DNA of 64,000 nt from assembly GCF_900178525.1 (NCBI RefSeq), contig NZ_FXDJ01000009.1, forward strand, positions 62,001 to 126,000, in the 5' to 3' direction. A model generated the notes under the pieces. The model had not been told where the DNA came from. It saw only the letters and a list, made by a program, of their open reading frames with translations, and did no database searches. Every line of letters begins with the position of its first letter. Position 1 is the stretch's first letter. Source of the DNA: Massilibacteroides vaginae (GTDB lineage Bacteria; Bacteroidota; Bacteroidia; Bacteroidales; Tannerellaceae). The position numbers and the translations under genes were made by a program. Below, piece by piece: positions 1,327-20,240 of the stretch.

Positions 1327-1736
1327 TTGTCACAATCTCCGCAATAGCCTTTAATTACAAGGTTTATGCCTTCCATTTCCATGCCTTGAGGCAATTCAAA
1401 TTTAGGCATAAGAATATTTTCTAAACAGAATGCTTTCTTGCAATAGTTACAGTAAAAATGCACATGAGAATCACTCACTTCGCAATTACAATCATCTTTA
1501 CAAATCGAGTATTTGATAGCCCCCGATCCATCGTCAAAACTGTGAATCAGTCCATTATTATTAAAAAGATGAATGGCTCGTGAAATTGTTGATTTATCAA
1601 CACTAGTGAGCTTGCTCTCTAAATCTCCAAGGCTGAACGCACTATCAAATTCTTTCATCGATTTAAAAATCAGAATACGACCAGAGGTCGGTTTAATATC
1701 CCGATTTTCAAGTAATTTTTCTATTGATTCTTTCAT
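1314..1736 (-). CDS. Fur-family metal-responsive transcriptional repressor
   Basis: The product has 140 aa, the usual Fur length. The N-terminal winged helix covers about residues 5-80, with the typical DKSTISRAIHLFNNNGLIH recognition region. The C-terminal half carries the metal sites: HVHFYC, CNYC and CGDC supply two CxxC pairs for structural zinc. Fur proteins dimerise and bind AT-rich dyads when metal-loaded. Whether this one senses zinc, iron or another metal cannot be read from sequence; the copper/zinc-type neighbours favour a non-iron metal. It lies between two His-rich protein genes on the same strand. A long dyad overlapping its own promoter region (1767-1805) suggests autoregulation. 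Confidence 0.88.
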   Translation of the reverse strand: MKESIEKLLENRDIKPTSGRILIFKSMKEFDSAFSLGDLESKLTSVDKSTISRAIHLFNNNGLIHSFDDGSGAIKYSICKDDCNCEVSDSHVHFYCNYCKKAFCLENILMPKFELPQGMEMEGINLVIKGYCGDCDKFAT

Positions 1737-2481: not shown

Positions 2482-2841
2482 TTAATTATGCCCTCCGTTA
2501 TGATTCTGACCATGAGAACCATGAGAGTGCCCGTTCGCATCGTGCGTTCCGTGGTCGGTTCCGTTGTGATGAGTTCCATCATGCTTAGTTCCCGAATGCT
2601 CTGCATAACCACATGCTTGGTGTGTGCCATCATTCAGAATATCGCAATTTTCATGGTTCCCGGCAGCATGTTGCTCTGCTACACTTGCTTTGTAAGCGTT
2701 AGCATCCGAAAAGCCAAGAGATGAAGCACGTAGTTCCAAATTTTGTTCTGTATTTCCTAAGTTATGATCATCATCCTTACTGCATGAGGCAAATGCAACT
2801 ACAAACGCTAAAATGGCTAATGAATAAAATACTTTTTTCAT
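2482..2841 (-). CDS. His-rich lipoprotein, short paralogue
   Basis: The product has 119 aa with a signal peptide and lipobox (VAFASC, Cys20) followed by SKDDDH. The middle region (HAAGNHENCDILNDGTHQAC) is clearly paralogous to that of the neighbour encoded at 1831-2424, including the two Cys. Its tail is a compact run rich in His, Gly, Asn and Asp (HHNGTDHGTHDANGHSHGSHG) without the longer Cys-bearing repeats of the neighbour. It is probably a metal-binding lipoprotein that arose by duplication. Upstream (2883-2917) lies a bipartite element also present before the ECF sigma gene at 18277, so expression is probably metal-regulated. Confidence 0.8.
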   Translation of the reverse strand: MKKVFYSLAILAFVVAFASCSKDDDHNLGNTEQNLELRASSLGFSDANAYKASVAEQHAAGNHENCDILNDGTHQACGYAEHSGTKHDGTHHNGTDHGTHDANGHSHGSHGQNHNGGHN

Positions 2842-2882: not shown

Positions 2883-2917
2883 TATACCAATTAGTAATAA
2901 TTTTACCCTATGGTAAA
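2883..2917 (-). promoter_or_regulatory. Bipartite regulatory element, copy 1
   Basis: On the plus strand the element reads TATACCAATT, 11 nt, then TACCCTATGG. The second half lies in a perfect dyad TTTACC-CTAT-GGTAAA (2902-2917). The same two half-elements with exactly the same 11-nt spacing recur at 18298-18331. Both copies lie directly upstream of minus-strand genes (proximal ends 42 and 21 nt from the start codons). The element is either a promoter for an alternative sigma factor or an activator/repressor site. Confidence 0.55.
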
Positions 2918-2937
2918 TCAGAAAATAATTTCAAAAT

Positions 2938-3309
2938 CTATTTACGGTACTTGCAGCATCCGGGAAGAGCATCATAAGTTGCTTGATCCGCTTTGTGTTT
3001 TTCTGTATCATGCCCCACTTTCGCTAAAGCCTTACTTATAGCATCAACAGATGTTTTGCTTCCATCAAAATTAACGTGTATTTGTTGCGTTTCTGCATCC
3101 CACTGAGCCGATGAAACTCCATCAATTGATTTAGCCGTCTTTTCAATTCTATCCTTACACATATCGCATGACCCATTAACTACAAAATGTTGATGGACTT
3201 GCTCTGTTGTTGTTGCTGCTTTTTGTTGGTTAGCATTCTTTTTAGAACCACCTGATCCACAAGCTGTCAATAATGCTACAGCGGCAATGATAATTAATAA
3301 ATTTTTCAT
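2938..3309 (-). CDS. HMA-domain lipoprotein (periplasmic metal chaperone-like)
   Basis: The product has 123 aa. A signal peptide with lipobox (LLTACG, Cys17) is followed by a Lys/Gln linker and a heavy-metal-associated fold with the metal loop GSCDMCKDRIE. The terminal LPGCCKYRK adds a CC pair. The HMA part is closely paralogous to the C-terminal domain of the CusB-type adaptor encoded at 5831-7414, down to the same CCKYR ending. HMA domains bind Cu(I) or similar ions through CxxC and hand them to partner proteins. It lies 22 nt downstream of the CopA-type ATPase gene and is probably cotranscribed. A role passing copper between ATPase, adaptor and His-rich lipoproteins is inference. Confidence 0.85.
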   Translation of the reverse strand: MKNLLIIIAAVALLTACGSGGSKKNANQQKAATTTEQVHQHFVVNGSCDMCKDRIEKTAKSIDGVSSAQWDAETQQIHVNFDGSKTSVDAISKALAKVGHDTEKHKADQATYDALPGCCKYRK

Positions 3310-3331
3310 AATAAACTTCTTTAATTTGTTG

Positions 3332-5827
3332 TTATAAATTGATATTTTTTAATCTTAATGCGTTTAATATAACGCAAACTGAACTTAAACTCATCGCAAT
3401 GGCCGCAATCATAGGAGATAGTAGTATTCCAAAAAGCGGATACAAAATACCGGCAGCAATCGGAATACCCAATACGTTGTAAATAAATGCAAAAAACAAA
3501 TTCTGCTTTATGTTTTTCATGGTTGCATGACTTAACTTTTTAGCTTTTACAATCCCTTGTAAATCTCCTTTCAGCAACGTTATTGAAGCACTTTCTATCG
3601 CTACATCTGTTCCGGTACCCATCGCTATGCCAATGTCAGACTGAGCCAGAGCCGGTGCATCGTTTATACCGTCTCCGGCCATAGCGACCACCTTGCCCTC
3701 TTTTTGTAACCGGTGTATTTCATCCAATTTATCTCCGGGCAAACATTGAGCTTTATAATCAGTTAAACCTAATTCGTCCGCAACCGCTTTTGCCGTGAGT
3801 TCATTATCTCCGGTTAACATGATAACTTGAACATTTTGTTTTAAAAGCATTTGTATTGCATTCGAGCTTGTTTTCTTAATGGCATCGGTTATACAGATAT
3901 AGCCTGCTATTTCAGTATTAACCGCAAGATATGATACGGTTTTACCCATACCCTGTTCATGCTTGACCTCTCTTTCTACAGACTCAGGAATTTGAACATT
4001 GATTTGTTCCATCAACTGCTTATTCCCTAATGCCAATTTGTTATTTGCAATATATCCGATAACGCCTTTGCCCGAAACAGCCTCAAAATTAGAGATACTA
4101 TCTGTTTTTGACTTAACTGATTTTCCATATTCAACAACAGCTTTTGCCAACGGATGTTCACTATATTGATTAATTGAAGCACTATAGTATGCCACATCCT
4201 CCTCAGTGTAGCTTCCAAATGGTTTTACTTTACCTACAGTAGGCTTACCTTCTGTTATTGTACCTGTTTTATCTACGATGAGAACGTTTACTTTATCAAA
4301 TCTCTCCAATGCTGCGGCATCTTTAATCAGAACTCCGTTTTGAGCACCTTTGCCTATACCGACCATTACAGACATGGGTGTTGCAAGTCCTAAAGCACAA
4401 GGACAAGCAATTATCAGTACAGCAAGTGCATTACTAAATGCAAATACATATGCCGGAACCGGCCCCCAAATTATCCACACGGCAAAAGTGAGTAAAGCAA
4501 CAGCGATAACAACAGGAACGAATACTCGAGAGATTCTATCCGCTAACTTTTGGATAGGTGCTTTTGAACGACTTGCATTCTCAACCATTGTTATAATCTG
4601 AGATAGAATAGTTTCGCTTCCTACCTTTTCTGCTATCATTGTAAATGAACTTGTGCCGTTTATTGTGCCGGAAGTAACTGTATCCCCTTTTATTTTATCC
4701 ACAGGTATTGGTTCGCCGGAAATCATTGACTCATCAATACTGCCTGTGCCTTCCAATACATATCCGTCAACAGGGATTTTATCCCCGGGTTTTACACGTA
4801 AAACATCACCTTTTTTTATTTCACTGATTGGTATTGATCTATCCTCTCCATTAATTACCAATGTCGATTCGGTTGGAGCCAATTTTAAAAGTTCTCTCAA
4901 TGCAGTGTTTGTTCTGCTATGCGCTTTAGCTTCTAAAAGTTGCCCCAATAAAACTAAGGTAAGTATAACCGTTACCGCTTCGAAATATAGAAATACCTGC
5001 CCGTTATGCCCTCTAAATTGTTCGGGAAATATGGACGGAAATAATAACGCTACTATGCTATATATAAATGCTGCTCCCGTACCTATACCTATCAGAGTAA
5101 ACATGTTTAGATTCATTGTTCTGATTGAAGTCCATGCCCTCTGAAAAAACATCCAAGTTGCGTAGAATACAACAGGAATTGAAAGTGCAAACTGTAATTT
5201 ACTTGAAATAGCAGGTGAAATTATTTTTGAAACAGGATTTCCGGGTATCATTTCAAGCATTGCCAATACAAATACAGGGATGGTAAAAAGTAAGGCTACT
5301 TTAAACTTTTTCAATAAATCTTGGTATCCAGAGTCATTGTCTTGTGCCTGTACGGGAACTAAATCCATACCACAAATAGGACAGCTTCCCGGTTCAGGTT
5401 TAATAATTTCCGGGTGCATCGGGCATGTGTACTCACTTACTGTAATTACAGGCTGCTTTATCAAATCCATACCGCAAACAGGACAACTTCCAAACTTATC
5501 GTAAGTTTTATCCCCTTCGCAATACATAGGACAGTAATATATTCCTTTATCTCTATCGACCTTCGACGATTTAATACTTGCCGAGCCACAGCAACCCGAA
5601 TGATTTTTATGTTCATTTCCTTTGATTTCCTCAATTGTGTAACTGCCAATTTCGGATAATGCTTTTTGAAATGTTTGAGTAGGGATATGCTTGTCCATCG
5701 TAATGATAGCCTCAGGAGGGGTTAAGGTTACAACGGCCTTAACACCCTCTAAGCTATTCAATGCTTTTTCTACTTTACTTAGGCAACCGTTACATGTCAT
5801 GTTGCCGATTTTATATTTATGTGTCAT
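3332..5827 (-). CDS. copA: Cu(I)-translocating P1B-type ATPase
   Basis: The product has 831 aa. In order it has an N-terminal HMA domain (GNMTCNGC), two heavy-metal-binding YHS-like modules (CPMYC...CPVCGMDL and CPMHP...CPICGMDL), then the transmembrane and catalytic core: TGES-like SGEPIPV, the CPC metal motif in ACPCALG, the phosphorylation site DKTGT, HP (SEHPLA), TGDN and GDGINDAPAL. The YN pair (YNVLGIP) and MSLSSV...NALRL near the end are typical of the Cu(I) subgroup. It uses ATP to pump Cu(I) or Ag(I) out of the cytoplasm. It is spaced 3 nt from the adaptor gene upstream, so pump, channel, adaptor and ATPase form one operon. The symbol is a family-level call. Confidence 0.95.
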   Translation of the reverse strand: MTHKYKIGNMTCNGCLSKVEKALNSLEGVKAVVTLTPPEAIITMDKHIPTQTFQKALSEIGSYTIEEIKGNEHKNHSGCCGSASIKSSKVDRDKGIYYCPMYCEGDKTYDKFGSCPVCGMDLIKQPVITVSEYTCPMHPEIIKPEPGSCPICGMDLVPVQAQDNDSGYQDLLKKFKVALLFTIPVFVLAMLEMIPGNPVSKIISPAISSKLQFALSIPVVFYATWMFFQRAWTSIRTMNLNMFTLIGIGTGAAFIYSIVALLFPSIFPEQFRGHNGQVFLYFEAVTVILTLVLLGQLLEAKAHSRTNTALRELLKLAPTESTLVINGEDRSIPISEIKKGDVLRVKPGDKIPVDGYVLEGTGSIDESMISGEPIPVDKIKGDTVTSGTINGTSSFTMIAEKVGSETILSQIITMVENASRSKAPIQKLADRISRVFVPVVIAVALLTFAVWIIWGPVPAYVFAFSNALAVLIIACPCALGLATPMSVMVGIGKGAQNGVLIKDAAALERFDKVNVLIVDKTGTITEGKPTVGKVKPFGSYTEEDVAYYSASINQYSEHPLAKAVVEYGKSVKSKTDSISNFEAVSGKGVIGYIANNKLALGNKQLMEQINVQIPESVEREVKHEQGMGKTVSYLAVNTEIAGYICITDAIKKTSSNAIQMLLKQNVQVIMLTGDNELTAKAVADELGLTDYKAQCLPGDKLDEIHRLQKEGKVVAMAGDGINDAPALAQSDIGIAMGTGTDVAIESASITLLKGDLQGIVKAKKLSHATMKNIKQNLFFAFIYNVLGIPIAAGILYPLFGILLSPMIAAIAMSLSSVCVILNALRLKNINL

Positions 5828-5830
5828 AAC

Positions 5831-7414
5831 CTATCGGTATTTGCAGCAATCAGGTAAGGCGTTGTAAGTTGCTTGGTCTGCTTTGTATTTATCGGTGTCG
5901 TGACCAACTTTAGCCATAGCCTTACTGATAGCGTCTATTGATGTTTTCGATGATTCAAAATTAACATGTAACTGTTTAGCATTTTGATCCCAAGTTGCAG
6001 TGGTAACTCCGGCAATTGCCTTTGCTGCTGTTTCAATTCGTTCCTTACACATTTCACAACTGCCGTTTACATTTATCGCAGCGTGTTCTGTCTTAGCACT
6101 ACTCTTGCTTGAAGTTCCACCTGACATGTCATGTCCTTCATGCCCAGTCATTGGTTGTGATACTTCATTGTTCATCATACTTTTTTTGCCTTCAAGTTGT
6201 GCGCTTGCATCAATAGAGAATACTCCGTTTGTAACTATTCTTTCACCTTCTGTTAAACCGTCTAATACGACATACGAATCGCCCAGTGACGGCCCGAGTT
6301 CAATTTCACGCAGTTTGAAAATAGGGGAATTGCTATTCGCCTGTTTAACGTAAACAATTGAGCGTTTCCCTGTCCAAAGTATAGCTGTTTTTGGAATCAC
6401 AATTTCATTCTTCAATTGTTTTAGCGGAGCATTTACTATCGCGCTTGCATACATTTCGGGCTTCAATTCCATCCCGGGATTTGATGTTTCTACTCTGACT
6501 TTTGCCGTACGTGTAGTTTTATCTATAATAGGGTCAATAAAGGATATGTTGCCAGAAAACTTTTTGCCCGGAATAGCCTGTAGGGTAAATTCGAGCTTGT
6601 CGCCAACCTTAAGAAATGGCAGGTCTACTTCATAAGCATCGAACATTGCCCACACTCTTGATAAATTTGCGATGTCAAATAATACACTTCCGGCTGTAAT
6701 ATAATCTCCCTGACTAACTTTCTTCGAAATAACAATACCGCTTGTATTTGCCTTAATATCAATATTCGGCGATACATTACCCGATGTTTCGATTTTAGAA
6801 ATCTGCTCATCTGTTAATTTCCACAACCTTAACTTTTCTTTTGCAGCTTCAACTAATCTCGGCTGAGTTTCTTTCAGTTTAACTGCCTCCAACAATTCTT
6901 GTTGAGCATTTAGCAGGTCGGGAGAGTAAATGGTTGCAATGGTTGCACCCTGTCTTACACTTTCTCCTGTAAAGTCAACATACAATTTTTCAATACGCCC
7001 TCCGACATGTGCCGTTTGTGATTGAAGACTTCGTTCATCAGGCTGGATTGTTCCGTACAAAGACACTTCTTTAATCGGCCTTTCTCGGCTCACTACAGAA
7101 GTTTGAACATTAGCAAGTGCCGCAGCTTCCTCTGATAGTTCTATTGCTCCATCATCAGCTATATCACTTGAACCGCCTGTTCTTAACGGAATTAAATCCA
7201 TTGCACAAATAGGACATTTACCGGGTTTGTCTTGTTTTATCTGTGGGTGCATCGAGCATGTCCAAACTTGGTTCTCTACAACTTCTTTATGTTCGCTTTC
7301 ATCATGTCCACTTGATGAGCCTCCAAAAATGAGCCACCCAACGAACAGTCCTATCAAAAGCACTAAAGCATATCTTAAATATTTGCTTTTGAATATATTT
7401 TTGATCTTTTCCAT
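5831..7414 (-). CDS. cusB: CusB-type RND periplasmic adaptor with HMBD and C-terminal HMA domain
   Basis: The product has 527 aa. An N-terminal membrane anchor (about residues 14-32) is followed by a heavy-metal-binding module (CSMHP...CPICAMDL), then the membrane-fusion core: barrel-sandwich, alpha-hairpin (LLNAQQELLEAVKLKE) and beta-barrel regions. A fused C-terminal HMA domain starts near residue 445 with GSCEMCKERIE and ends CCKYR. CusB adaptors link the inner-membrane pump to the TolC channel and can pass Cu(I)/Ag(I) to the pump. The C-terminal HMA is an addition to the usual CusB layout and is nearly the same as the lipoprotein encoded at 2938-3309. It is spaced 2 nt from the TolC-type gene. 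Confidence 0.93.
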   Translation of the reverse strand: MEKIKNIFKSKYLRYALVLLIGLFVGWLIFGGSSSGHDESEHKEVVENQVWTCSMHPQIKQDKPGKCPICAMDLIPLRTGGSSDIADDGAIELSEEAAALANVQTSVVSRERPIKEVSLYGTIQPDERSLQSQTAHVGGRIEKLYVDFTGESVRQGATIATIYSPDLLNAQQELLEAVKLKETQPRLVEAAKEKLRLWKLTDEQISKIETSGNVSPNIDIKANTSGIVISKKVSQGDYITAGSVLFDIANLSRVWAMFDAYEVDLPFLKVGDKLEFTLQAIPGKKFSGNISFIDPIIDKTTRTAKVRVETSNPGMELKPEMYASAIVNAPLKQLKNEIVIPKTAILWTGKRSIVYVKQANSNSPIFKLREIELGPSLGDSYVVLDGLTEGERIVTNGVFSIDASAQLEGKKSMMNNEVSQPMTGHEGHDMSGGTSSKSSAKTEHAAINVNGSCEMCKERIETAAKAIAGVTTATWDQNAKQLHVNFESSKTSIDAISKAMAKVGHDTDKYKADQATYNALPDCCKYR

Positions 7415-7416
7415 AA

Positions 7417-8871
7417 TTATTCTTTTTCTGTATTTGATATTAATCTTTGTAATGATGCAATCATAGTATTATACTCAGCAATTGCTTCCGATTGTTTCAA
7501 TTGATAATCAAGAAGCTGTCGTTGAACTTGCATAACATTTGTCAAATCGCTTTTACCTGAAATAAATTCCTGTATAATGATGTTATAAGTTGTTTGAGCA
7601 AGTTCCGTTTGCTTAATATAAAGCTCAATTTTTCTATCTGCATCGTTGATTTGATGTTTAACAGTGTAATACTGAGCTTCCAACTCCTTCTGTGTGTTAG
7701 CGTACTTTTCCTGACTTGATTGCCAATACAGCATACTTTCCTTTTGTTGTGCGTTGTATTTTTTTCTGAATATTGGTAGGGTTACCGATACCATAGGCAT
7801 TATCATGTCTTTCCCATTCATATGTGTGATGGGAAGTCCCATACCATCATCCATTCTTTTATTAATCATGGTATAGTTAATACCAACACCAAACATCGGA
7901 TAGCTCATCTTCTTATCCATTTCGCCTTTTGCTTTGTATGCTAACGATTCTTCTGTAATCATTTTCAGCATCGGATTATTATCCATAATGTTTTCTAATG
8001 TACTTTCTTCATTATCATAAACAAATGGTAGTTTTTCAAATCTATCTGGTATAACAACACTTTCATTAGCAGGTCGACTTAGAAGAGAATTAAACTTAGC
8101 TTTAGCTGCTATCATTTCAGAATTGATGCTTTTGATATTATTATCTAACTCAGCGATTTCCAACTGTATTCTTAATACATCGGACATGCCAGAGGAGGCT
8201 CCCCCCATGCCGCCACCACCAGCAGACATACTCGCAGTGGTAGTCTGAGCAGCTTGTCCGCCTCCCATGCCCATTCCACCCATTCCTCCTGATGAGTTTG
8301 CGGCAACAGGTGTGGTTGAAGCAGAAGGAGTAGAAGCAGCTTTTGATGATGCTCCTGTATTTGAACTTGAGAATCTGCGTAAAGCCAACTCTTCGAGATG
8401 TGTCAAGATATCTTTATTAGCTTGCGTATTTACCAAACGTTGTTTAAGATTACATAAAACAAACCATTGATTATAAATTTCGAAATATAGATTATCTCGA
8501 GTTTCTCTAAACTTCTCGTATGCCATTTTTGACATATGTTGAGCCTCCGTTCTTGCAGCTTTTCGTGTACCAAACCAAGGAAACATTTGCATCAACTTAA
8601 AATCGGCTACTTGTTTACCATCAATAATATCCATCGGTTGTAGAAAAAAACCTATTTCCAATTGTGGATCTGCAAATGCACCGGCTTGAGGTATTTTTTG
8701 AAGCGAAGCCTCATATACGGCAAATTCTGATTTCAACAAATGATTGTTATACGCTGCAATCCTCAAATAGTGCTGCAATGAATCAGCTTCCTGAGCATGG
8801 ATGGTATTTGCACTAACTATTAATGCAAGCACTAAAATATATTTATTAAATATTATCCGAAGCATAATCAT
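7417..8871 (-). CDS. TolC-family outer membrane channel of the metal efflux system
   Basis: The start is set at the ATG at 8871 (or the second ATG at 8865), because a signal peptide ending SANTIHAQ follows directly; longer readings run into the pump gene. The product has about 484 aa and the long alpha-helical repeats of TolC/CusC proteins. In place of a short loop it has an insertion of about 50 residues rich in Ser, Thr, Ala, Gly and Met (SSGGMGGMGMGGG...MSAGGGGMGG, near 8190-8360). Met-rich loops can bind Cu(I), so this may be a metal-contacting segment. The start overlaps the end of the CusA-type gene by 26 bp, consistent with translational coupling. Confidence 0.9.
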   Translation of the reverse strand: MIMLRIIFNKYILVLALIVSANTIHAQEADSLQHYLRIAAYNNHLLKSEFAVYEASLQKIPQAGAFADPQLEIGFFLQPMDIIDGKQVADFKLMQMFPWFGTRKAARTEAQHMSKMAYEKFRETRDNLYFEIYNQWFVLCNLKQRLVNTQANKDILTHLEELALRRFSSSNTGASSKAASTPSASTTPVAANSSGGMGGMGMGGGQAAQTTTASMSAGGGGMGGASSGMSDVLRIQLEIAELDNNIKSINSEMIAAKAKFNSLLSRPANESVVIPDRFEKLPFVYDNEESTLENIMDNNPMLKMITEESLAYKAKGEMDKKMSYPMFGVGINYTMINKRMDDGMGLPITHMNGKDMIMPMVSVTLPIFRKKYNAQQKESMLYWQSSQEKYANTQKELEAQYYTVKHQINDADRKIELYIKQTELAQTTYNIIIQEFISGKSDLTNVMQVQRQLLDYQLKQSEAIAEYNTMIASLQRLISNTEKE

Positions 8872-11800
8872 TATTATTTTCTGTGATTTCTTTTTTCTTT
8901 TCTCTCTTAATTGCCGATTCCCTCCACCAGCACTGAAATACCGGAACCACAAACATGGTCATGGATTGAATAAGCATACCTCCGAAGGTAGGAATTGCCA
9001 TCGGAACCATTATCTCTGCTCCCTTGCCTTGAGCCGTTAGAACAGGTAATAAGGCTATCAATGATGCAGCTGTTGTCATAGCTGCGGGACGTACCCTTTT
9101 GAGTCCTGCGAATACCACAGCTTCTCTGATAGCCTCCTTGGTTTTTGGGTCTCTTTCAATAAATGTATCATGTATATATGTTCCCATCAACACTCCGTCA
9201 TCCGTTGCAACGCCAAACAGAGCAATAAATCCGACCCATACGGCAACACTTAGATTTATGGGGTGCATTTGGAATAAATCCCGCATATTGGTTCCTGCCA
9301 CTGCAAAGTTCATAAACCAATCCTGACCGTATAGCCATAAAAAAATAAATCCTCCCGAAAATGCAACAAAAACTCCTGAAAAGTGGATAAGTGATGCGGT
9401 AACTGTTCTGAACTGAAAGTAAAGAACTAAGAGTACCATCATTAGCACCAAAGGAACAATTATCATTAAACGATTTGTTGCACGTTCTTGCTGCTCATAG
9501 TTACCTGCAAACTTATAGTTTACTGCTTCCGGTAGTTTTAATTCGCCTGAAGCTATTTTCTCCGAAAGAATTTTATCAGCTTCCTTTACCACATCAACTT
9601 CTGCCTTGCCCTGTAATTTGTCAAATATCACATAGCCCACTAAAAACGTATTCTCGCTTTGAATCATTTGTGCGCCCTTGGTGTAAATTATGTCGGCAAG
9701 GTCATTAAGCGGTACCTGAGCACCCGTAGCAGTTGGAACAAGCAACTTGCCTAATTCTTCCGGACTGTCTCTCAATTCCCTTGCATAACGTAAACGTACA
9801 GGGAAACGCTCTCTGCCTTCAACTGTTGTTGTTAGACTCATTCCTCCTACAGCCGCAGATAATATCTCTTGTAAATCACCGACATTAACGCCGTATCTTG
9901 CCATATTTCTTCTATTGAGCTTAATTTCAAGATAAGGGGCACCTACTGCTCTGTCGTAAAAAACGGAAGAGCTGACTACGGATGGTACTCCTTTAAGCAC
10001 TTGCTCTATGGCTTTTCCTCCTTCCTCAATCGACTCCAAATCCGGGCCGTAAACTTTTACTCCCATTGGTGCTCTCATTCCTGTTGAAAGCATTACAAGG
10101 CGAGCTTCAATTGGTTGCAACTTAGGTGCCGAGGTTAGTCCCGGCATGTGAGTTACATTCACAATTTCCTGCCATATATCATCCGTATTCCTTATATTAG
10201 GCCTCCATTGCCTGTAATAATCACCTCTTTTATCTTTAACCAAACTATCGACAGGTATTAATCTAAATCCGTCTTTTGGATTATAGGTATTTCCGCTTAT
10301 CAGCAAGTATTCTCCTTTTGAGTTTGTCTTAAACCTTTGCCTCTGCCCGTCCTCATTAAGAGCGTATTCAGGTCTATAGTTAATCGTATTTTCAAACATT
10401 TGTATGGGAGCAGGGTCTAAGGCAGAGTTAACTCGCCCCCACTTACCGACTGCTGTTTCCACTTCTGGAATTTTAGCTAAACGTTTATCTAATAGCTCAA
10501 TGAACTCTAAATTTTGCTCAATCCCTGTATGTGGCATACTTGTAGGCATCAATAAAAACGAGCCTTCATTTAGACTGGGCATAAACTCCTGACCAATGCC
10601 CGGAAATTTTTCGCTTGCTGCTTCCCAAAATGCTGTTTTTCTAAATTCTTTCCAACCTACAGATTCAAAGCCTGTAGCTACAAAGCCAAAAACTCGGTTA
10701 AATCCAATCCAAATAACTAATCCAAAAACTACCACAGTTATTGGCAACATCATAAATTTGAATCTGTTTGCCAAACACCATCGTAGAATTTTTTCGTAAA
10801 AAACTACAATCGTCCACATTAACCCCATTACCACAGCTATGGCCAATGATACAAATACGATATTGACAAACATTCCTTTTTCGGGGCCTAAAGGTAGCCA
10901 CGATTGAGCCAAAATATATGTAACGATAACCAGTGCAATGCCAATATTGATATAGTTGCTTAGATTTTTATTTTTCCACTTATGTGCAAATAAATTGTTT
11001 GCTCCAAGAGCGATTAAGCCTATCGCAAGTATATTACCATAAACAATTAAAAAGACTAAACCGGCAGCAATCAGAATATAATTCAGTACTTTTCTGATTT
11101 TGGCAGAATTAATTTTGAACGAAAAAACGAAATAAGCAAGCGTTGGAAGTATTATCAATCCCAATACAAATGAAAAACCGAGAGTAAAGGTTTTTGTATA
11201 AGCTAAAGGAGCAAACAATTTACCTTCCTGTGCTTCCATTGCAAAAACGGGTAAGAAGCTCACAATAGTAGTCATCATAGCAACAGTTAATGCTCCTGAC
11301 ACTTCCCCAATAGCCTTTTTGATTAGTTGAAGTAATGGCTTCCCTTTCTTGGCATCTTTATTTTCAGGCATTTCCATATGCCGGATAATGTTTTCGACAA
11401 AGACTGTCCCCACATCAACCATTACCCCGATTGCAATTGCAATACCTGATAGTGCAACAATATTTGCACTTATGCCTGTATATTTCATCAGGATAAATGT
11501 GGCTAATACAGCTATCGGCAGTAAACTGGCAATGATGACTGAGGCTCGAAGGTTGAGAACCAATACTATGATTACAATAATACAAATAAGTATTTCTTCC
11601 ATTAAGGAGCTTTCAAGCGTTCCTATTGTCTCTTTAATGATACCTGTACGGTCATAAAACGGAACAACGGTTACTTTAGAAACTGTACCATCCTCAAGAG
11701 TCTTTTGAGGTAATCCGGCTTCCATCTCTTTTATCTTTTCCTTAACGTTATTGATTACTTCTAATGGATTTGAACCATAACGTGCTACAACAACGCCTCC

Positions 11801-12706
11801 GACTGCTTCCACACCTTCTTTATCCAAACCGCCTCTGCGCGGTGCCGGCCCGAGTGTTACAAAAGCGACATCTTTTATCTTTACAGGAACTCCATTCCGA
11901 ACAGTGACTACCGCTTCTTCAAGATCAGACACATTTTTAATATACCCAAGACCACGTATAAGATATTCTACTTTGTTTATTTCTACAGTTTCGGCTCCAA
12001 TGTCAAGGTTGCTCTTTTGTACGGCATTCATTATATCCATTGTAGACACATTGAATGAGCGCATAGCATTAGGATCTATTTCTACTTGGTACTCTTTGAC
12101 AAAACCTCCAACCGAGGCCACTTCCGAAACGCCCTTAGCTCCCGCAAGAGAGTACTTTACATAGAAATCTTGTATAGTTCGAAGCTCATCGGGATCCCAT
12201 CCTCCGGCAGGTTTACCTGTTTCGGGATTTCGACCTTCAAGAGTATACCAGTAAATTTGACCTAAAGCTGTAGCGTCCGGCCCTAAACTTGGTTGTACTC
12301 CTTCCGGTAAAGTTCCAGATGGCAGAGAATTTAATTTTTCCAGTATCCTTGACCGACTCCAGTAAAATTCAATGTCATCGTCAAAAATGATATAAATAAA
12401 TGACATGCCGAACATGGAACTGCTTCGGATTGTTTTTACCCCTGGGATGCCTAATAATGAGGTAGTCAATGGATAAGTTATTTGATCTTGTATATCCTTT
12501 GGTGAACGCCCCATCCATTCGGTGGCAACAATTTGTTGATTATCCCCAATATCGGGAATAGCGTCAACTGCAACCGGATTACTTGGTATAATCCCGCCAT
12601 GCCAACTGAATGGGGCAGTTGAAATGCCCCAAACAATTATTATGACCAGCAATAATATTGCAACTAATCGGTTGTCTAAAAAATAATCTACTATTTTCTT
12701 TAACAT
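8846..12706 (-). CDS. cusA: CusA/CzcA-type heavy-metal efflux RND permease
   Basis: The product has 1286 aa. It starts MLKKIVDYFLDNRLVAI with the first TM helix, followed by family features such as DIGDNQQIV, ATEWMGRSPKDIQDQ, the proton-relay TM4 region (AIAIGVMVDVGTVFVENI) and a second transmembrane block near the end (VATDDGVLMGTYI). These pumps use proton import to expel metal ions across both membranes with adaptor and channel partners. It is longer than the approximately 1040-aa E. coli CusA: additional hydrophobic segments lie between about residues 530 and 700. Neighbours are CusB-type, TolC-type and CopA-type genes, so Cu(I)/Ag(I) is the likely substrate, though Zn/Co/Cd export is possible. 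Confidence 0.95.
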   Translation of the reverse strand: MLKKIVDYFLDNRLVAILLLVIIIVWGISTAPFSWHGGIIPSNPVAVDAIPDIGDNQQIVATEWMGRSPKDIQDQITYPLTTSLLGIPGVKTIRSSSMFGMSFIYIIFDDDIEFYWSRSRILEKLNSLPSGTLPEGVQPSLGPDATALGQIYWYTLEGRNPETGKPAGGWDPDELRTIQDFYVKYSLAGAKGVSEVASVGGFVKEYQVEIDPNAMRSFNVSTMDIMNAVQKSNLDIGAETVEINKVEYLIRGLGYIKNVSDLEEAVVTVRNGVPVKIKDVAFVTLGPAPRRGGLDKEGVEAVGGVVVARYGSNPLEVINNVKEKIKEMEAGLPQKTLEDGTVSKVTVVPFYDRTGIIKETIGTLESSLMEEILICIIVIIVLVLNLRASVIIASLLPIAVLATFILMKYTGISANIVALSGIAIAIGVMVDVGTVFVENIIRHMEMPENKDAKKGKPLLQLIKKAIGEVSGALTVAMMTTIVSFLPVFAMEAQEGKLFAPLAYTKTFTLGFSFVLGLIILPTLAYFVFSFKINSAKIRKVLNYILIAAGLVFLIVYGNILAIGLIALGANNLFAHKWKNKNLSNYINIGIALVIVTYILAQSWLPLGPEKGMFVNIVFVSLAIAVVMGLMWTIVVFYEKILRWCLANRFKFMMLPITVVVFGLVIWIGFNRVFGFVATGFESVGWKEFRKTAFWEAASEKFPGIGQEFMPSLNEGSFLLMPTSMPHTGIEQNLEFIELLDKRLAKIPEVETAVGKWGRVNSALDPAPIQMFENTINYRPEYALNEDGQRQRFKTNSKGEYLLISGNTYNPKDGFRLIPVDSLVKDKRGDYYRQWRPNIRNTDDIWQEIVNVTHMPGLTSAPKLQPIEARLVMLSTGMRAPMGVKVYGPDLESIEEGGKAIEQVLKGVPSVVSSSVFYDRAVGAPYLEIKLNRRNMARYGVNVGDLQEILSAAVGGMSLTTTVEGRERFPVRLRYARELRDSPEELGKLLVPTATGAQVPLNDLADIIYTKGAQMIQSENTFLVGYVIFDKLQGKAEVDVVKEADKILSEKIASGELKLPEAVNYKFAGNYEQQERATNRLMIIVPLVLMMVLLVLYFQFRTVTASLIHFSGVFVAFSGGFIFLWLYGQDWFMNFAVAGTNMRDLFQMHPINLSVAVWVGFIALFGVATDDGVLMGTYIHDTFIERDPKTKEAIREAVVFAGLKRVRPAAMTTAASLIALLPVLTAQGKGAEIMVPMAIPTFGGMLIQSMTMFVVPVFQCWWRESAIKREKKKEITENNNDYASDNI

Positions 12707-12711
12707 GATTC

Positions 12712-13293
12712 TTATTCGTTAGTTTTTCCTACAACGTTTCCGCATGTAAGCATTTTATTTCCAAAATAAGGGTTCTTAATTTCTTTTTCAAGACTTAACC
12801 AATTGGCTCCTTTGTTGTTTAGAGCCATTGAACAGTGTGCAATATATATACCAGCTTTAGATTCTTTTGCTAAAAGAATATACTCCTCGCTTATCTCAGA
12901 TAAAACAACTCGAGCAGTATCAATGTTCTTTGCAGAGTAAATCTCTTTCGACAATTGTTTGATTTTATCATTATTTGCAGTTTTTTCAATTGCTTTTGCT
13001 TCTGATTTTACAGACTCAAAGTCGGAACGGACAAAAGCATCTTTGAGTTTGAAATATTCAACAAAAAGGGCTGATTTAGTATGATCCGCATGATTGTGTT
13101 CTGTTAGATTACCTTGCTTATGGGCTGAATGATCTCCATCTTTAGGACATGATGCTTCCTTATGTTTTTGGTTATTAGAACAGCATGACGATGAATTTTC
13201 TTTGTGCTCGGAATGAGAAGATTGAGCAAATGATTTTGCGCTGAATAGAGTAGAGAACAGGACTATACCTGTTATAATTATAATATTTTTCAT
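12712..13293 (-). CDS. DUF3347 exported metal-associated protein
   Basis: The product has 193 aa with a signal peptide ending KSFAQ. A His/Cys-rich stretch (HSEHKENSSSCCSNNQKHKE...HADH) precedes a DUF3347-like domain: a helical segment (YFKLKDAFVRSDFESVKSEA) and the conserved tail HCSMALNNKGANWLS...NPYFGNKMLTCG. This domain is often found beside or fused to CusB-like adaptors, where the His/Cys/Met residues are candidate Cu ligands. It lies 5 nt before the pump gene and is the likely first gene of the efflux operon. A periplasmic metal donor or scavenger role is inference. Confidence 0.85.
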   Translation of the reverse strand: MKNIIIITGIVLFSTLFSAKSFAQSSHSEHKENSSSCCSNNQKHKEASCPKDGDHSAHKQGNLTEHNHADHTKSALFVEYFKLKDAFVRSDFESVKSEAKAIEKTANNDKIKQLSKEIYSAKNIDTARVVLSEISEEYILLAKESKAGIYIAHCSMALNNKGANWLSLEKEIKNPYFGNKMLTCGNVVGKTNE

Positions 13294-13396
13294 TTTATCG
13301 AATTTTAATATGTTACAAATTATACAATAGAAATAGAACTCACATGAATCAACTTAATGTTAATTCAAAGAGTTAAATCGAGGTATAATTAATAAA

Positions 13397-13789
13397 TCAA
13401 ATTCGATATACGCAAATAAAGGCAAGCCTGTCCAAGACTTTTCTGAACAGAGTTCCAACAGGGATGAATCCCTCATCCTTTAAATCCGCACTGTGATCGG
13501 AAGTAATAAGCAAGTGTTGTTGTACAATAACAAACGCACTTATTATACTGAAATTGGAATGAACTTGTTGTGCTTGATAATTATCTGTAGATAGAACAAC
13601 AGTATTATCATTGCAACATCCTGCTTTGTGTATGCCTTCGGCAGGCAATTCACCACAGCACTTTGTATCCTGAGGAGTTTGAATAGCGATTGAACTTAAT
13701 TCGCCTTGGCAATAATGAAAATAGAGCACTGGTTGCACAGCTATAAGCAGTGTCAACAAAATCAGTGATATGAATGCTATTCTTTTCAT
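13397..13789 (-). CDS. Small Cys-rich exported protein (HYC_CC_PP-like)
   Basis: The product has 130 aa. It has an N-terminal signal or anchor (residues 4-20), then FHYCQGELSS, a CC pair (KCCGEL), a second CC pair (GCCNDN) and a Tyr/Gln motif. This spacing of HYC followed by CC pairs resembles the small Bacteroidetes family named HYC_CC_PP. The Pro-Pro near the usual C-terminus is not evident here, so the tail may be divergent. Such genes occur beside copper-efflux genes; the Cys pairs could bind Cu(I). It stands alone, 103 nt upstream of the DUF3347 gene. Confidence 0.7.
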   Translation of the reverse strand: MKRIAFISLILLTLLIAVQPVLYFHYCQGELSSIAIQTPQDTKCCGELPAEGIHKAGCCNDNTVVLSTDNYQAQQVHSNFSIISAFVIVQQHLLITSDHSADLKDEGFIPVGTLFRKVLDRLAFICVYRI

Positions 13790-13930
13790 TTTAAGTCAAA
13801 ATGTCCAGTAAATATATTTCAGACAATTATCCTGCAAATGTCGGAAATATTTCCGGATATGCTTTATACTATTTCTCGTTTATTTTATATATTTTACAAC
13901 TTCGTCGTTTTTAGATTAAAATCATGCTTT

Positions 13931-14494
13931 TTAGATTTCATCTAAAGCCTTACGGCTATTGGGTTGTATCTCTTTGAACTGACTCGGAGAAATGTTTGTA
14001 ATTTTTTTAAACTGACTACTTAAATGTGCAACACTTGAATAATTTAGTTGGTCTGCAATCTCACTCAAGGTCAATTCTCCATATTCCAATAATTCTTTTA
14101 CTTTTTCTATTTTTTGAGCAATGAAGTACTTCTCAATTGTTGTAGTTTCAACTTCTGAAAAAATATTGCTCAAATAATTGTATTCAAAATGAAGTTTTTC
14201 TTGCAGATAATCCGACAAATTTGTTTTGAGAATACAATTCTTGTTATAAATTAAATCAATAATTATAGCCTTTATTTGCTGAGTTGTTTGACTTTTTTTA
14301 TCAATAACCAAAGCAAAGCCTAATTTTTGAAGTGCCAAATCAATTTTTTCTAAACTAATGAAGTCCAATTCATCAGCAAACTCCACAACTCCTAATTTTA
14401 CAGAAGTTGGAGAAAATCCTAACTTTTCTAACTCTTTATTTACAACCATTATGCAACGATTGCAAACCATATTTTTCACAAACAATTTATACAT
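13931..14494 (-). CDS. AraC-family regulator with N-terminal HMA-like metal-binding domain
   Basis: The product has 187 aa. Residues 1-65 read like a degenerate heavy-metal-associated domain with VKNMVCNRCIMVV, where CxxC would bind the metal. Residues 85-180 are an AraC-type double helix-turn-helix (LSEIADQLNYSSVAHLSSQFKKITNISPSQFK). Combining sensing and DNA binding in one short chain makes it a plausible direct metal sensor for the downstream efflux genes. It precedes the two Cys/His-rich genes and the efflux operon on the same strand. A TAACTTTG -7-like element (minus strand, 14510-14517) lies just before its ATG. The regulated promoters are not proved by sequence. Confidence 0.87.
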   Translation of the reverse strand: MYKLFVKNMVCNRCIMVVNKELEKLGFSPTSVKLGVVEFADELDFISLEKIDLALQKLGFALVIDKKSQTTQQIKAIIIDLIYNKNCILKTNLSDYLQEKLHFEYNYLSNIFSEVETTTIEKYFIAQKIEKVKELLEYGELTLSEIADQLNYSSVAHLSSQFKKITNISPSQFKEIQPNSRKALDEI

Positions 14495-14509
14495 TGAAAT
14501 TTTTTATAG

Positions 14510-14517
14510 CAAAGTTA
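14510..14517 (-). promoter_or_regulatory. -7 promoter element of the HMA-AraC regulator
   Basis: On the minus strand TAACTTTG matches the TAnnTTTG consensus, 16 nt from the start codon at 14494. The -33 partner is weak. Confidence 0.35.
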
Positions 14518-14577
14518 TTACTAATTTACATCAGATAATAGTTTTAAATCTGTTAGAAAATAATTTTCACGCCAAAA

Positions 14578-17007
14578 TCAGAAAATAATTTCAAAAAATA
14601 ATACTGGAGTAAGGGGTGTTGCTTTTGTATAAACATTATAGGCACTATTTTGATTAGACAAACGGTAGCTGTATTTAACGTTATTTGTATTGAAAACATT
14701 AAGAACAGAAGCACCTGTCTGAATCCTTATTTTTTTTAACTGCAACTTGTATGTAAGAGATAAATCCAAACGGTTATACGGAGGTTCATTAGAAGTATCC
14801 GAATGTTGATGCCCATTTCCATGCTGCTGCTCTTCATCACCTTGCCCATGCCCATGCCCGCTTGTGGACAAGTAAGGGAATCCGGAACCATAGACATAAG
14901 TTGCGGAAAAGTGGAACGATTTTAATGTATATATCGCTCCTAACTTTACTTCATGCGCTGTATATTCTTGCGGATTGGCTGAATTGATAAAAGAGTATGA
15001 GCCAAAAGCAGTAAGTCTGTTCCATTCTTTTTTAGCATATACATCGACACCCCAAACTGTATTGTCAAATGAAGAAACAACATTGTCGATAAAATATAAT
15101 TGATTTCGATTTTTCTTTACATAACCTTCGGTACTAAAAAGCCAGCCGTTTTTACTGTATGCAAGCCCGGCTAAATAGTGTGTCGATGAGAGATATGTAC
15201 TATCCGACAAGTTCCAAATCATCTGATAGCTTCCTTGACGATATTGATAGGGAATGCGTGTTAGAAATTGATTGTACAATCCGAAGGAAGCCGTAGCTGT
15301 CAGTTCGTCGGTAAGTGAATAGCTTGCTGATAATCGCGGCTGAATGTGTATTTTTTTGTCAGGTACTAAATCGGCTCTCAATCCTGCCTTTAGTGATAAT
15401 TTCCCCAGCAATATATTATCTGTAATGTATAATGAAGGGTTATTTATTTGTGTTTGCCTATCGTTAAATTCACTTGTATAGTTTTGCCATTGTCCACCTA
15501 TTTGTATTTTTTGCCTTTCGCCTAAATTGAAATTATGTTCCAGTTTTGCTGAGATTTCTTGTATTGAGTTTTTGATATTAAACACATCCAGAGGCGTTGC
15601 TTGGTTATTGGTAATACCAGTAACATTATCTACGGTAGCATCGAGTTTTGAATATGAAATTAGGAGCTTACTGTTACTACCACTATTCCATATCCTATTA
15701 TATCCTGTTGATGCACCATATTGCCTGTTTTTTTCGGTAGCATTTACCTCATACTCCTGCTGTTTTACATAAAACTTGAAATGGTCGTCCGCTCCATACA
15801 AGCTAAGGTGGTAGCGGTCATTACCGAATGCTTTTCCTGCATATTTGAGGTTCAAATCACGAAAATCGTAATTGGGCTTAATATATGTTCCCGATTGAGT
15901 TTGTGTACCATGATTTCCATTTGAACCGTTTACATCTTCATTATTATAGAGGTTGTAAAATGTTTGACGATAGGCTACCGACAGGGCAGAGGTTTTCTTT
16001 ATTGGAATCGAAGTGTAAATATTCGCTGTATAGTTACTGACATTTAACTTTACTGATGGTTTAGAAAAATCGCCTTCATTTCCTGTTATTTCGGCTATTG
16101 CTCCGATACGATTACCCGATGAAGCATCATATCCTCCTTTTTGCAAACGAATATCTTTTGCCAAATAAGGGTTAACGGAACCTATCTGGTCGTTGAAACT
16201 TTTCATCCCGAAAATGGTAAAACCATCATAGGTTAAACGGCTTTCTCCCCAATTACTTCCCCAAACAAAAAGATCTTCCGATGGTTCTCCCGAAGCACGC
16301 ACTCCGGGCAGCATACGCAAGAGGGTGAAAACTGAATTATCAGCACTTCCGGGCATATATCGTGCTATTTGATGATTTATTCTCATCTCGCCCGAAGTCT
16401 TTCCCGATTGCATCAACATGGCTGTTGATGAAGGTTGGACAACAACTTCTTGCATTGTAAATACCTTAGCTGATAAACTAAGTTTATGGTTACCTACTAT
16501 CAATGTAGTATCAAGCGGTTCAAATCCCATATATTGTGTTTGAATCCGTGTGGGTTGATTTGTTTCTTGGATAATTGAGAAATACCCTGATTCGTTGGTG
16601 ATTACCGTCCCCTTAATTGTTTGAATATACGCATAAGGTAAAGGCTCTCCTGACACCATATCATATAAGACTCCAGAGATAGTATATTTTTTAGGTATGA
16701 CTGGTGTGTGTGTATTCTCGATTTCTGCTTTGGGCGAATAAGTAATAACATAGACATTACCTCTTTTTCGCATCGTCAGAGGTTTGTCCTTTATTAAATA
16801 ACTTATAGCTTCTTCAGGTGTATTAAAAGTTTTTGAAACAGAAATAATATATTTTGATAATGCCTCATCATCGAACGAGATTTCTACATTCAATGAGTTC
16901 AGAACTGTATTTAGTGGCTTTTCAGATACAACTAACCGCAACCCTTGTGAAAAAGTTGCGGTAACGGATGTAAATAGTATAGCTATTAAAAGAAGCCCCT
17001 TTTTCAC
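14578..17007 (-). CDS. TonB-dependent outer membrane receptor with STN signalling domain
   Basis: The product has 809 aa, starting at a GTG that overlaps the FecR stop (GTGA). A signal peptide ending ATFSQG is followed by an STN (secretin/TonB short N-terminal) domain at about residues 22-95, a carboxypeptidase-regulatory-like beta domain (YTISGVLYDMVSGEPLPYAYI), a plug domain (MRINHQIARYMPG...LFVWGSNWGESRLTYDG) and the beta-barrel. An STN domain next to FecI/FecR means ligand binding is signalled to the sigma factor. A late loop, GHGHGQGDEEQQHGNGHQH (coded near 14801-14863), is strongly His-rich and looks like an external metal-binding loop. The substrate may be a metal or metal chelate. Confidence 0.92.
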   Translation of the reverse strand: MKKGLLLIAILFTSVTATFSQGLRLVVSEKPLNTVLNSLNVEISFDDEALSKYIISVSKTFNTPEEAISYLIKDKPLTMRKRGNVYVITYSPKAEIENTHTPVIPKKYTISGVLYDMVSGEPLPYAYIQTIKGTVITNESGYFSIIQETNQPTRIQTQYMGFEPLDTTLIVGNHKLSLSAKVFTMQEVVVQPSSTAMLMQSGKTSGEMRINHQIARYMPGSADNSVFTLLRMLPGVRASGEPSEDLFVWGSNWGESRLTYDGFTIFGMKSFNDQIGSVNPYLAKDIRLQKGGYDASSGNRIGAIAEITGNEGDFSKPSVKLNVSNYTANIYTSIPIKKTSALSVAYRQTFYNLYNNEDVNGSNGNHGTQTQSGTYIKPNYDFRDLNLKYAGKAFGNDRYHLSLYGADDHFKFYVKQQEYEVNATEKNRQYGASTGYNRIWNSGSNSKLLISYSKLDATVDNVTGITNNQATPLDVFNIKNSIQEISAKLEHNFNLGERQKIQIGGQWQNYTSEFNDRQTQINNPSLYITDNILLGKLSLKAGLRADLVPDKKIHIQPRLSASYSLTDELTATASFGLYNQFLTRIPYQYRQGSYQMIWNLSDSTYLSSTHYLAGLAYSKNGWLFSTEGYVKKNRNQLYFIDNVVSSFDNTVWGVDVYAKKEWNRLTAFGSYSFINSANPQEYTAHEVKLGAIYTLKSFHFSATYVYGSGFPYLSTSGHGHGQGDEEQQHGNGHQHSDTSNEPPYNRLDLSLTYKLQLKKIRIQTGASVLNVFNTNNVKYSYRLSNQNSAYNVYTKATPLTPVLFFEIIF

Positions 17008-17780
17008 TTTTTTATATTGAATGTTATACCAAATGGCTCTCCGATTATATCCAAAATTTCTTGTGCATCTTTTTCTTTTGAGAAATTTCCTGAGTAAAGA
17101 TAGTTTAATTTTGAAGTTGTTGTTACATGAATATCATACTGTCTTTCAATTTCTTCAATTACATCAGGCAAAGGTACTCCTATGAAACAGAATTTATTCT
17201 CTCTCCAACCTATTACCTGTTCCGACTTGGATATTTGAGATACATTCAATTTACCTTTATTAAGAACCGCCTCCATATTAGGCGTAAGGATCGTTTTCTC
17301 TTGATTTGAAATTACTTCAACTTTTCCGGCAAGACAAGTTACGTTATATTTATCGGTACGAGAGAATATATTGAAACTTGTTCCTAATACATGAACACTA
17401 TTATTATTGGAATAAACACTGAACCGACTTCCTTTTTCAACTTCAAAATAAGCTTCTCCTGACAATTCAATATCTCGTGAGATGTACCACCACAATGGTT
17501 TATATGCAAGTTTACTTTCTGCATTCATTTCTACCTTTGATCCGTCTGGTAAAATGACTGTTTTATGCACTCCTCTATCTGAAATTTCATTCGTAGAATA
17601 AAAATAAGCGAATGAAGTAAGAACTGCAAAAAGTATTACTGATGCAGCAGAATAATACGAGAACAATTTTAATTTACGCCCTTTCTTTTTTCCTTTTTTT
17701 AATGTGGAAAACTTTTCAAGCCAAATATCCTCACTTGATTTATCCCACTGTGGGTCTATTTGTATATCATCTATTTTCAT
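17004..17780 (-). CDS. FecR-family anti-sigma factor
   Basis: The product has 258 aa. Residues 1-40 form a short cytoplasmic part, one TM helix follows (about 41-62, FSYYSAASVILFAVLTSFAYF), and the periplasmic FecR domain carries VILPDGSKVEMNAESKLAY, ELSGEAYFEVEKG and VHVLGTSFNI. A C-terminal STN-like module (PLPDVIEEIERQYDIHV...FGITFNI) would contact the receptor. FecR proteins hold the ECF sigma factor inactive until the TonB receptor signals. It lies 2 nt after the sigma gene and overlaps the receptor gene by 4 bp, so the three are one operon. Confidence 0.93.
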   Translation of the reverse strand: MKIDDIQIDPQWDKSSEDIWLEKFSTLKKGKKKGRKLKLFSYYSAASVILFAVLTSFAYFYSTNEISDRGVHKTVILPDGSKVEMNAESKLAYKPLWWYISRDIELSGEAYFEVEKGSRFSVYSNNNSVHVLGTSFNIFSRTDKYNVTCLAGKVEVISNQEKTILTPNMEAVLNKGKLNVSQISKSEQVIGWRENKFCFIGVPLPDVIEEIERQYDIHVTTTSKLNYLYSGNFSKEKDAQEILDIIGEPFGITFNIKK

Positions 17781-17782
17781 AT

Positions 17783-18277
17783 TTAATCAACTAATAGTTT
17801 ATCTCTCAATTGCTTTAATGCTACAGACATCCATTTTTCAACGGTCTTAACACTTATACATAAAGTTTTGGCAATTTCACTATACTTCAAACCCTCGTTT
17901 CTGCTCATCAGAAATATGGTACGTTGCAATTCAGGCATATCATTCAACGCATCAGAGTAATTTGTTGTCAATTCCTGATATTGAATCTGTTCTTCGGGAG
18001 ACTCTTCAAAGCTTACTTTCAATCTCATGGTCTGTTCAAATTCGATATGTTTGGATTCTCTATGGTAGCAGTTAATAAACATGTCGTGAGCCATTTTATA
18101 AAGCAAACTTTTAATGTTAGTCAACTCTAAATCATCGCTTTTTTCCCAAACCTTAGTGAAAACATCTTGAGCTATATCTGAAGCCATACTCATATCTCCA
18201 CAGCGATAATAAATATATCTGCGGATTGAATCAAAATACTTATCAAATATGATTTTAAAATCATTTGTATCTAACAC
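17783..18277 (-). CDS. ECF sigma factor, FecI-like
   Basis: The product has 164 aa from a GTG start. Sigma region 2 (FDSIRRYIYYRCGDMSMASDIAQDVFTKVWEK) and region 4 (LPELQ-like MPELQRTIFLMSRNEGLKYSEIAKTLCISVKTVEKWM) are plain. It directs RNA polymerase to the receptor operon and perhaps other targets once FecR releases it. A bipartite element 21 nt upstream is shared with the His-rich lipoprotein gene at 2841, so this sigma factor may recognise or be regulated through that element. Confidence 0.93.
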   Translation of the reverse strand: MLDTNDFKIIFDKYFDSIRRYIYYRCGDMSMASDIAQDVFTKVWEKSDDLELTNIKSLLYKMAHDMFINCYHRESKHIEFEQTMRLKVSFEESPEEQIQYQELTTNYSDALNDMPELQRTIFLMSRNEGLKYSEIAKTLCISVKTVEKWMSVALKQLRDKLLVD

Positions 18278-18297
18278 GCCAAAACTTATTTTACTAT

Positions 18298-18331
18298 TAT
18301 ACCAATTGAGTGATAAAATACCCTATGATAA
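18298..18331 (-). promoter_or_regulatory. Bipartite regulatory element, copy 2
   Basis: The element reads TATACCAATT, 11 nt, then TACCCTATGATAA on the plus strand, matching 2883-2917 at 10/10 and 9/9 core positions with identical spacing. It lies directly before the sigma factor start (18277) and overlaps the last codons of the reductase-like gene. It is a candidate autoregulated ECF promoter or a shared operator. Confidence 0.55.
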
Positions 18332-20148: not shown

Positions 20149-20240
20149 TATCTGTATATATTAATTAGGAATTAGTCCATCTTTCAATCGAAAAGTATAC
20201 CACTTACAAACTATGAACGTATAGGATTCGTTCATATAAA

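Follow-up and report, generated by a model that had tools for sequence, protein, structure and literature searches.

We analyzed a stretch of 64,000 nt from Massilibacteroides vaginae (assembly GCF_900178525.1, contig NZ_FXDJ01000009.1, positions 62,001 to 126,000 of the forward strand), hereafter the window, in which one and the same bipartite element stands on the minus strand before the gene of a FecI-like extracytoplasmic function (ECF) sigma factor and before that of a His-rich lipoprotein, lipoA. On the strength of sequence comparisons, we hold with high confidence that both elements are promoters read by the sigma factor of this same island, which would make up an autoregulated sigma-FecR-receptor operon and a dedicated lipoprotein operon. 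Since this pairing has been retained in many relatives throughout the phylum, the sigma factor very probably turns on both its own gene and that of a His-rich surface protein. An earlier note on this DNA had proposed that the lipoproteins are joined to the receptor/sigma operon either by a common ECF sigma promoter or by the site of a regulator; loci from the family Tannerellaceae and from Bacteroidota as a whole support the former.

Two copies of one element in the window

The full element reads CATAGGGTA-N11-AATTGGTATA on the minus strand and is matched exactly at 2883-2912 and 18298-18327, with 19 identical positions and an 11-nt gap, as the earlier note had described. Its core was defined as TAGGGTA-N15-GGTATA and scored out of 13. 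Element 1 (18298..18327, minus strand), the predicted ECF-type promoter of the sigma operon, matches exactly and is conserved upstream of sigma orthologues; its -35 box TAGGGTA lies at 18319-18325 and its -10 box GGTATA at 18298-18303, separated by a spacer of 15. Element 2 (2883..2912, minus strand), an exact match to the same predicted promoter before the His-rich lipoprotein operon, has its -35 box TAGGGTA at 2904-2910 and its -10 box GGTATA at 2883-2888. From the end of the -10 box, 20 nt lead to the GTG of the sigma gene (18277) and 41 nt to the ATG of the lipoprotein gene (2841), in keeping with the 20 to 45 nt upstream of minus-strand starts given before. The -35 box at the sigma gene overlaps the TAG stop codon (18323-18325) of the DHFR-like gene upstream.

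That such a recurrence is unlikely to arise by chance, as had been claimed, is borne out by dinucleotide shuffles of the window, none of which (0/100) contained two matches. A third copy of the full element was found neither in the window nor elsewhere in the 3.71-Mb genome (G000) at up to three mismatches; the genome-wide search returned these two matches instead of many unrelated copies, and a reversed control gave two chance matches. The spacers of the two elements differ (AAATTATTACT versus TTTTATCACTC), so that nothing points to a block of DNA having been duplicated recently. When the gene starts of the island were scanned (n = 16), a core score above 10/13 was reached solely at those of the sigma gene and lipoA.

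Conservation across Bacteroidota

When named genomes were scanned with an alignment of the sigma factors, 79 loci across Bacteroidota were retained, of which 66 (0.98 Mb) formed a unique set once 13 with identical 120-nt upstreams or with less than 60 nt upstream had been dropped. These 66 loci contained 53 core sites at up to one mismatch, 52 of them on the sigma strand, while each of 12 scrambled motifs gave only 0 to 2. An upstream score of at least 12/13 was found before the sigma gene in 29/66 loci, before FecR in 0/63 and before the receptor in 0/59. As to spacing, strong enrichment was confined to 15 nt: a spacer of 15 yielded the 53 sites, 31 of them exact, whereas spacers of 10 to 14 and 16 to 21 yielded 0 to 8 (8 at spacer 21), none exact.

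Under a slightly wider definition, a site was present at the sigma gene in 35/66 loci, before another open reading frame (ORF) in 40/66, at either place in 52/66 and at neither in 14/66; two of the 52 (L199 and L214) rest on chance-like matches. An ORF followed 45 of the non-sigma sites; of these ORFs, 34 matched a lipobox regular expression and 8 others looked exported by eye, while 3 appeared chance-like. The second site lay behind the receptor gene, some 3.7 to 4.9 kb downstream of the start of sigma (only 1.8 kb for L206), and in one mobile island also at 9.7 kb, whereas in 12 loci lacking a sigma site the element preceded a lipoprotein gene 0.6 to 1.3 kb upstream of sigma. In relatives, counterparts of element 2 stand before genes for homologues of lipoA and for further lipoproteins; the second-site products include lipoA homologues, a DUF2202 lipoprotein, an LTXXQ protein and unnamed families. 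In Dysgonomonas sp. PF1-14 (L143), a third site at -964 from sigma precedes a DUF3108 exported protein.

The element thus has the traits of an ECF promoter, namely, two boxes at fixed spacing, upstream of a sigma gene and of a target, and conserved along with the sigma factor. All of this, including the strand, the way the element is conserved before one pair of gene types and the architecture of the cassette, is read directly from the sequences.

Conservation within Tannerellaceae

Of 123 genomes of the family that were searched, 21 encode homologues of the sigma factor, 24 in all. The upstream regions of 20 of the 24 carried TAGGGTA-N15-GGTATA or a near match (at least 10/13) with varied spacer letters; as for the other four, L018 is without the element, L010 offers only 22 nt, and L013 and L014 carry exact sites. 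Exact core sites numbered 41, in 23/123 genomes, and the next gene was an orthologous ECF sigma gene in 17 cases, a lipoprotein gene in 19 and a TonB receptor gene in one, while the remaining four sites lay inside open frames, with no ORF start within 130 nt. One near-identical mobile island supplied 6 of the 19 lipoprotein and 4 of the 17 sigma copies. The open-frame check took in 30 of the 41 sites, the other 11 being classified by next gene only. A lipobox followed the site in 13/30 true versus 2/29 reversed sites, the remaining true ones preceding mostly sigma genes, and 9/30 true versus 29/29 reversed sites fell inside an open frame of at least 100 codons.

At four loci (L111, L113, L115 and L116), an exact core was seen on other contigs, before lipoproteins or before a receptor-like gene with an STN-like start, which suggests regulon members in trans. 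Ten of the named loci (L147-L156), in ten genomes (Bacteroides, Parabacteroides, Dysgonomonas and a Dysgonomonadaceae metagenome-assembled genome), have one cassette in common and do not differ in the 120 nt before sigma, and in nine of them a further lipoprotein gene follows at a distance of 9.7 kb; they probably represent a recently spread mobile metal island.

Class of the sigma, FecR and receptor genes

The sigma gene (17783..18277, minus strand, GTG start) encodes 164 residues with Sigma70_r2 and Sigma70_r4_2 domains. The protein scored 130.6 bits against Sig70_bacteroi1 (TIGR02985; curated NCBIfam cut-off, 126.4) but only 64.5 bits against FecI proper (NF041727; equivalog cut-off, 260), and it is therefore FecI-like rather than FecI. 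Next to it, as in FecI/FecR/FecA-type systems, lies the gene of a FecR-type anti-sigma/transducer of 258 residues with a FecR_C domain (17004..17780, minus strand; PF04773 and PF16344, both above cut-off).

The third gene (14578..17007, minus strand) very likely encodes a TonB-dependent receptor, though no receptor model passes its cut-off: Plug scored 22.8 bits (cut-off, 23.9), no barrel family matched at an E value of 0.05 or below, and the CarboxypepD_reg domain (CarbopepD_reg_2, PF13715) was above cut-off. A His-rich stretch is visible by eye near its C-terminal end, and no relative of solved structure was found for it at an E value of 0.01. Nine of ten receptor N-termini matched STN at an E value of 0.1 or below (best, 1.7e-6), that of the window at 0.0045 with 17.2 bits, under the curated cut-off of 28.4. 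As the N-terminus of the receptor is STN-like, the trio has the anatomy of cell-surface signaling; the order sigma-FecR-receptor was kept in 68 of the 79 named loci.

Specificity of the element

The core occurs exactly in the genome at the two window sites alone. Three more sites differ by one mismatch: one is the promoter of a paralogous sigma gene, and two are not next to a FecR locus. At two mismatches, 64 matches versus 122 for the reversed control mark the background. The genome holds 26 FecR loci, yet among them exact or one-mismatch cores are found only at this cassette and at its 52%-identical paralogue. Because of this restriction, the element looks like the code of one sigma subgroup, and a general promoter of all FecI-like sigma factors was rejected.

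The paralogous cassette has its own -10 variants, TAGGGTA-N15-GGTTTA (CGGTTTA) at sigma and TAGGGTA-N15-GGTTAC (CGGTTAC) at lipoA, against TGGTATA here. GGTATA is preceded by T at both window promoters, as it is at both promoters in four other Tannerellaceae loci, and the base before GG agreed in 27/27 promoter pairs (25 C/C and 2 T/T). In a sigma tree built without 10 of the 66 loci (nine distant sigma factors and L217, which is too short), the T state needs two origins.

Alternative readings and points of weakness

The element could instead be the operator of another regulator of the island, the HMA-like AraC or the Fur-like protein, since the island encodes both types, but we regard this as improbable. 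A tblastn search (1e-4, flanks of up to 10 kb) detected the AraC-type gene in 1 of the 79 named loci (L151, a weak match of 27% identity over 79 amino acids) and the Fur-like gene in 5 (L140, L141, L143, L144 and L146), plus the mobile island, where it lies beyond the flank; the element persists regardless. An operator of AraC or of the Fur-like protein was rejected for this lack of co-occurrence, and the second option of the earlier note is disfavored with it. Moreover, the fixed 15-nt spacing is as for two sigma contacts, and the element sits at promoter distance on the coding strand.

Slightly less probable still is that the promoter is read by a different sigma factor, either the primary one or another of the many ECF sigma factors of the genome. 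Cross-talk between ECF sigma factors is possible, and the genome has 26 FecR loci, including the paralogous cassette; however, the confinement of exact and one-mismatch cores at FecR loci to this cassette and its paralogue, and the different -10 boxes of the latter, speak against it. The primary sigma-ABfr recognizes TTTG near -33 and TAnnTTTG near -7 according to the portion of PMC7366714 that was available, and a promoter of this type was rejected because, on inspection, no TAnnTTTG lies between either element and its start codon. A scan for E. coli-type promoters was uninformative, with 76 hits versus 72.1 in shuffles. Finally, a chance coincidence or a recent functionless duplication, in favor of which there is nothing beyond the copies being only two, can practically be dismissed given the shuffles, the unlike spacers, the fact that relatives across the phylum have the element before the same kinds of gene, and the enrichment for strand, upstream position and spacer 15 in the unique loci.

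Several results nevertheless weigh against the assignment of the element to the island's own sigma factor. The family count was nondiscriminating, the reversed pattern giving 29 matches against 41 for the core, and the raw count is therefore not the argument; likewise, an ORF start within 130 nt followed 26/30 true and 19/29 reversed sites, which does not discriminate either. Across Bacteroidota, the element was missing at the sigma gene in 31 of the 66 unique loci; in its place, 15 loci have a site before a lipoprotein gene, either 0.6 to 1.3 kb upstream or at 3.9 kb on the downstream side, another 2 show a chance-like match only, and 14 have nothing. Eight of these 14 are among the most distant sigma factors, and one of the 14, L176, has just 392 nt upstream. 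The sigma factor of the window forms a long branch, and its position in the tree is unsure. Agreement of the -10 hexamer within loci was no better than after re-pairing (132 versus 129.6, p = 0.27, 27 pairs), and residue N69 of sigma, a weak lead, follows the choice of T or C ahead of GG in all but 2 of 21 cases.

Proposed mechanism

We infer that this sigma factor is the reader of the elements, that transcription starts from them and that the operons extend as given here. Sigma recognition, the FecR relay, sensing by the receptor and positive autoregulation are modeled on established knowledge of ECF and Fec systems. Accepting these parallels, the STN-bearing TonB-dependent receptor would bind its ligand, and the signal would be relayed through FecR so that sigma is freed or activated. 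Sigma would then transcribe its own sigma-FecR-receptor operon from element 1, a positive autoregulation, and the operon of the His-rich lipoprotein, the Fur-like protein and DUF6769 from element 2. Because of the neighboring efflux genes and the His-rich products, the signal may be a metal such as copper or zinc.

More tentatively, and at less than even confidence, the loci may represent a widespread four-part envelope system of Bacteroidota, made of sigma, FecR, an STN receptor and a dedicated exported lipoprotein that would be, beyond a mere output, a working partner of the receptor, the parts being tied together by sigma's own TAGGGTA/GGTATA promoter. The lipoprotein, which belongs to His-rich, LTXXQ/Spy-like, DUF2202 or unnamed families, might capture the ligand or feed back, its His-rich version possibly sensing heavy metal at the surface.

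Other genes of the island

The genes of the island all lie on the minus strand, from sigma (18277) down to DUF6769 (832). Following the receptor gene is that of an AraC-type regulator (13931..14494, minus strand), whose AraC part alone was matched by Pfam, the HMA-like N-terminus with a CxxC motif being recognized by eye. The metal-export genes between the two elements (2938..13789, minus strand) comprise orf130, DUF3347, CusA-, CusC- and CusB-like genes, a CopA-type P-ATPase and an HMA lipoprotein, CusA and CusC being named by eye. No element was found before them (best scores, 7 to 9/13), and these efflux genes may be reached by read-through or be under separate control. The CusB-like adaptor (5831-7414) ends in an HMA-type domain which, by eye, closely resembles the separate HMA lipoprotein (2938-3309), as if one derived from the other.

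The predicted target of element 2, lipoA (2482..2841, minus strand), encodes a His-rich lipoprotein of 119 residues with the lipobox FASC, identified by eye. A search for relatives of solved structure gave four weak, unrelated matches (best E value, 0.083). The family had 16 copies in 8 of the 123 Tannerellaceae genomes, located either at loci with this kind of cassette or on short contigs that belong to the island, and occurred in 2 of 393 genomes of the order drawn evenly from a larger group, one of the two being G000 itself. After lipoA come lipoB (1831..2424, minus strand), a second lipoprotein of the family, which aligns with lipoA and has repeated His- and Cys-bearing units, the gene of a Fur-like regulator (1314..1736, minus strand; FUR PF01475, 22 bits, just under the cut-off of 23.1), which probably belongs to the element-2 operon, and that of a small His-containing DUF6769 protein (832..1269, minus strand; PF20558 above cut-off) at the end of the presumed operon. 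The order element, lipoprotein, Fur-like, DUF6769 recurs in one near-identical mobile island (five loci). A perfect 11-bp inverted repeat, CAAAAGTATAG/CTATACTTTTG, lies at 1774-1798, 37 nt before the Fur-like gene; it is unique in the genome even when one mismatch is allowed, but it was dropped as a candidate Fur-type operator, being not conserved in five relatives.

Directly upstream of sigma, a DHFR/RibD-like gene (18323-18865) was observed which is also present, at 52 to 56% identity, in 13 of the 79 related loci, 10 of them being the same mobile island. Integrase fragments and two IS21-like istA/istB pairs, named by eye, adjoin the island at 19741-27206, which suggests the remains of a decayed mobile element.

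Comparison with known systems and significance

The island resembles FecI/FecR/FecA of Escherichia coli, which serves cell-surface signaling by ferric citrate, in that an ECF sigma factor, a FecR with FecR_C and a very likely TonB-dependent receptor with a signaling-type N-terminus are encoded in one cluster. In the haem system Has (HasI/HasS/HasR), HasS acts as anti-sigma. This system likewise joins an ECF sigma factor to a TonB receptor with a periplasmic signaling domain. According to the accessible part of PMC9249621, which also describes this likeness, hasI is not autoregulated, and E. coli fecIR is controlled by Fur and not autoregulated, the output of FecI being transcription of fecABCDE; here, in contrast, one element stands at the sigma operon itself and a second one serves a lipoprotein operon. 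The parts are of known kinds; what sets the island apart from E. coli Fec, as far as the latter is covered there, is the predicted combination of an autoregulated sigma factor and a promoter dedicated to a lipoprotein.

Within Bacteroidota, Dma1/Das1 of Bacteroides thetaiotaomicron is also an ECF sigma factor with an anti-sigma factor, and in the sections of PMC13088901 at hand the output of Das1 (sigma) and Dma1 (anti-sigma) includes a NigD-like protein, NigD1 being raised, and no promoter motif for the pair was met. Dma is described there as a dual membrane-spanning anti-sigma factor, whereas the system here uses FecR and a TonB receptor. The noncanonical -10/-30 promoter PM2 of B. thetaiotaomicron belongs to a Bacteroidota class thought to serve the ECF sigma factors SigW-1 and SigH-1 (excerpts of PMC7366714 and PMC12596196); it has a TGTT motif near -10 (PMC12596196, in the same excerpt), against TAGGGTA/GGTATA here. 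B. thetaiotaomicron has 50 ECF sigma factors (PMC12596196, same excerpt); as of 2020 none of them had a known motif, according to what could be consulted of PMC7366714, and SigW-1 and SigH-1 were assigned proposed PM2-like motifs in 2025 (PMC12596196, same excerpt). In a literature search conducted mostly at title level, neither this motif for an ECF sigma factor nor the sigma/lipoprotein pairing was met; the logos of the ECF reclassification may include the motif.

FecI/FecR cassettes are numerous in Bacteroidota, and for most of them neither promoters nor targets are known; a promoter specific to one subgroup makes the targets readable from sequence. The predicted targets are strikingly uniform, consisting of the sigma factor itself and an exported lipoprotein, and in this mobile copper-type island the promoter also suggests a receptor-based, cell-surface route to metal-linked regulation.

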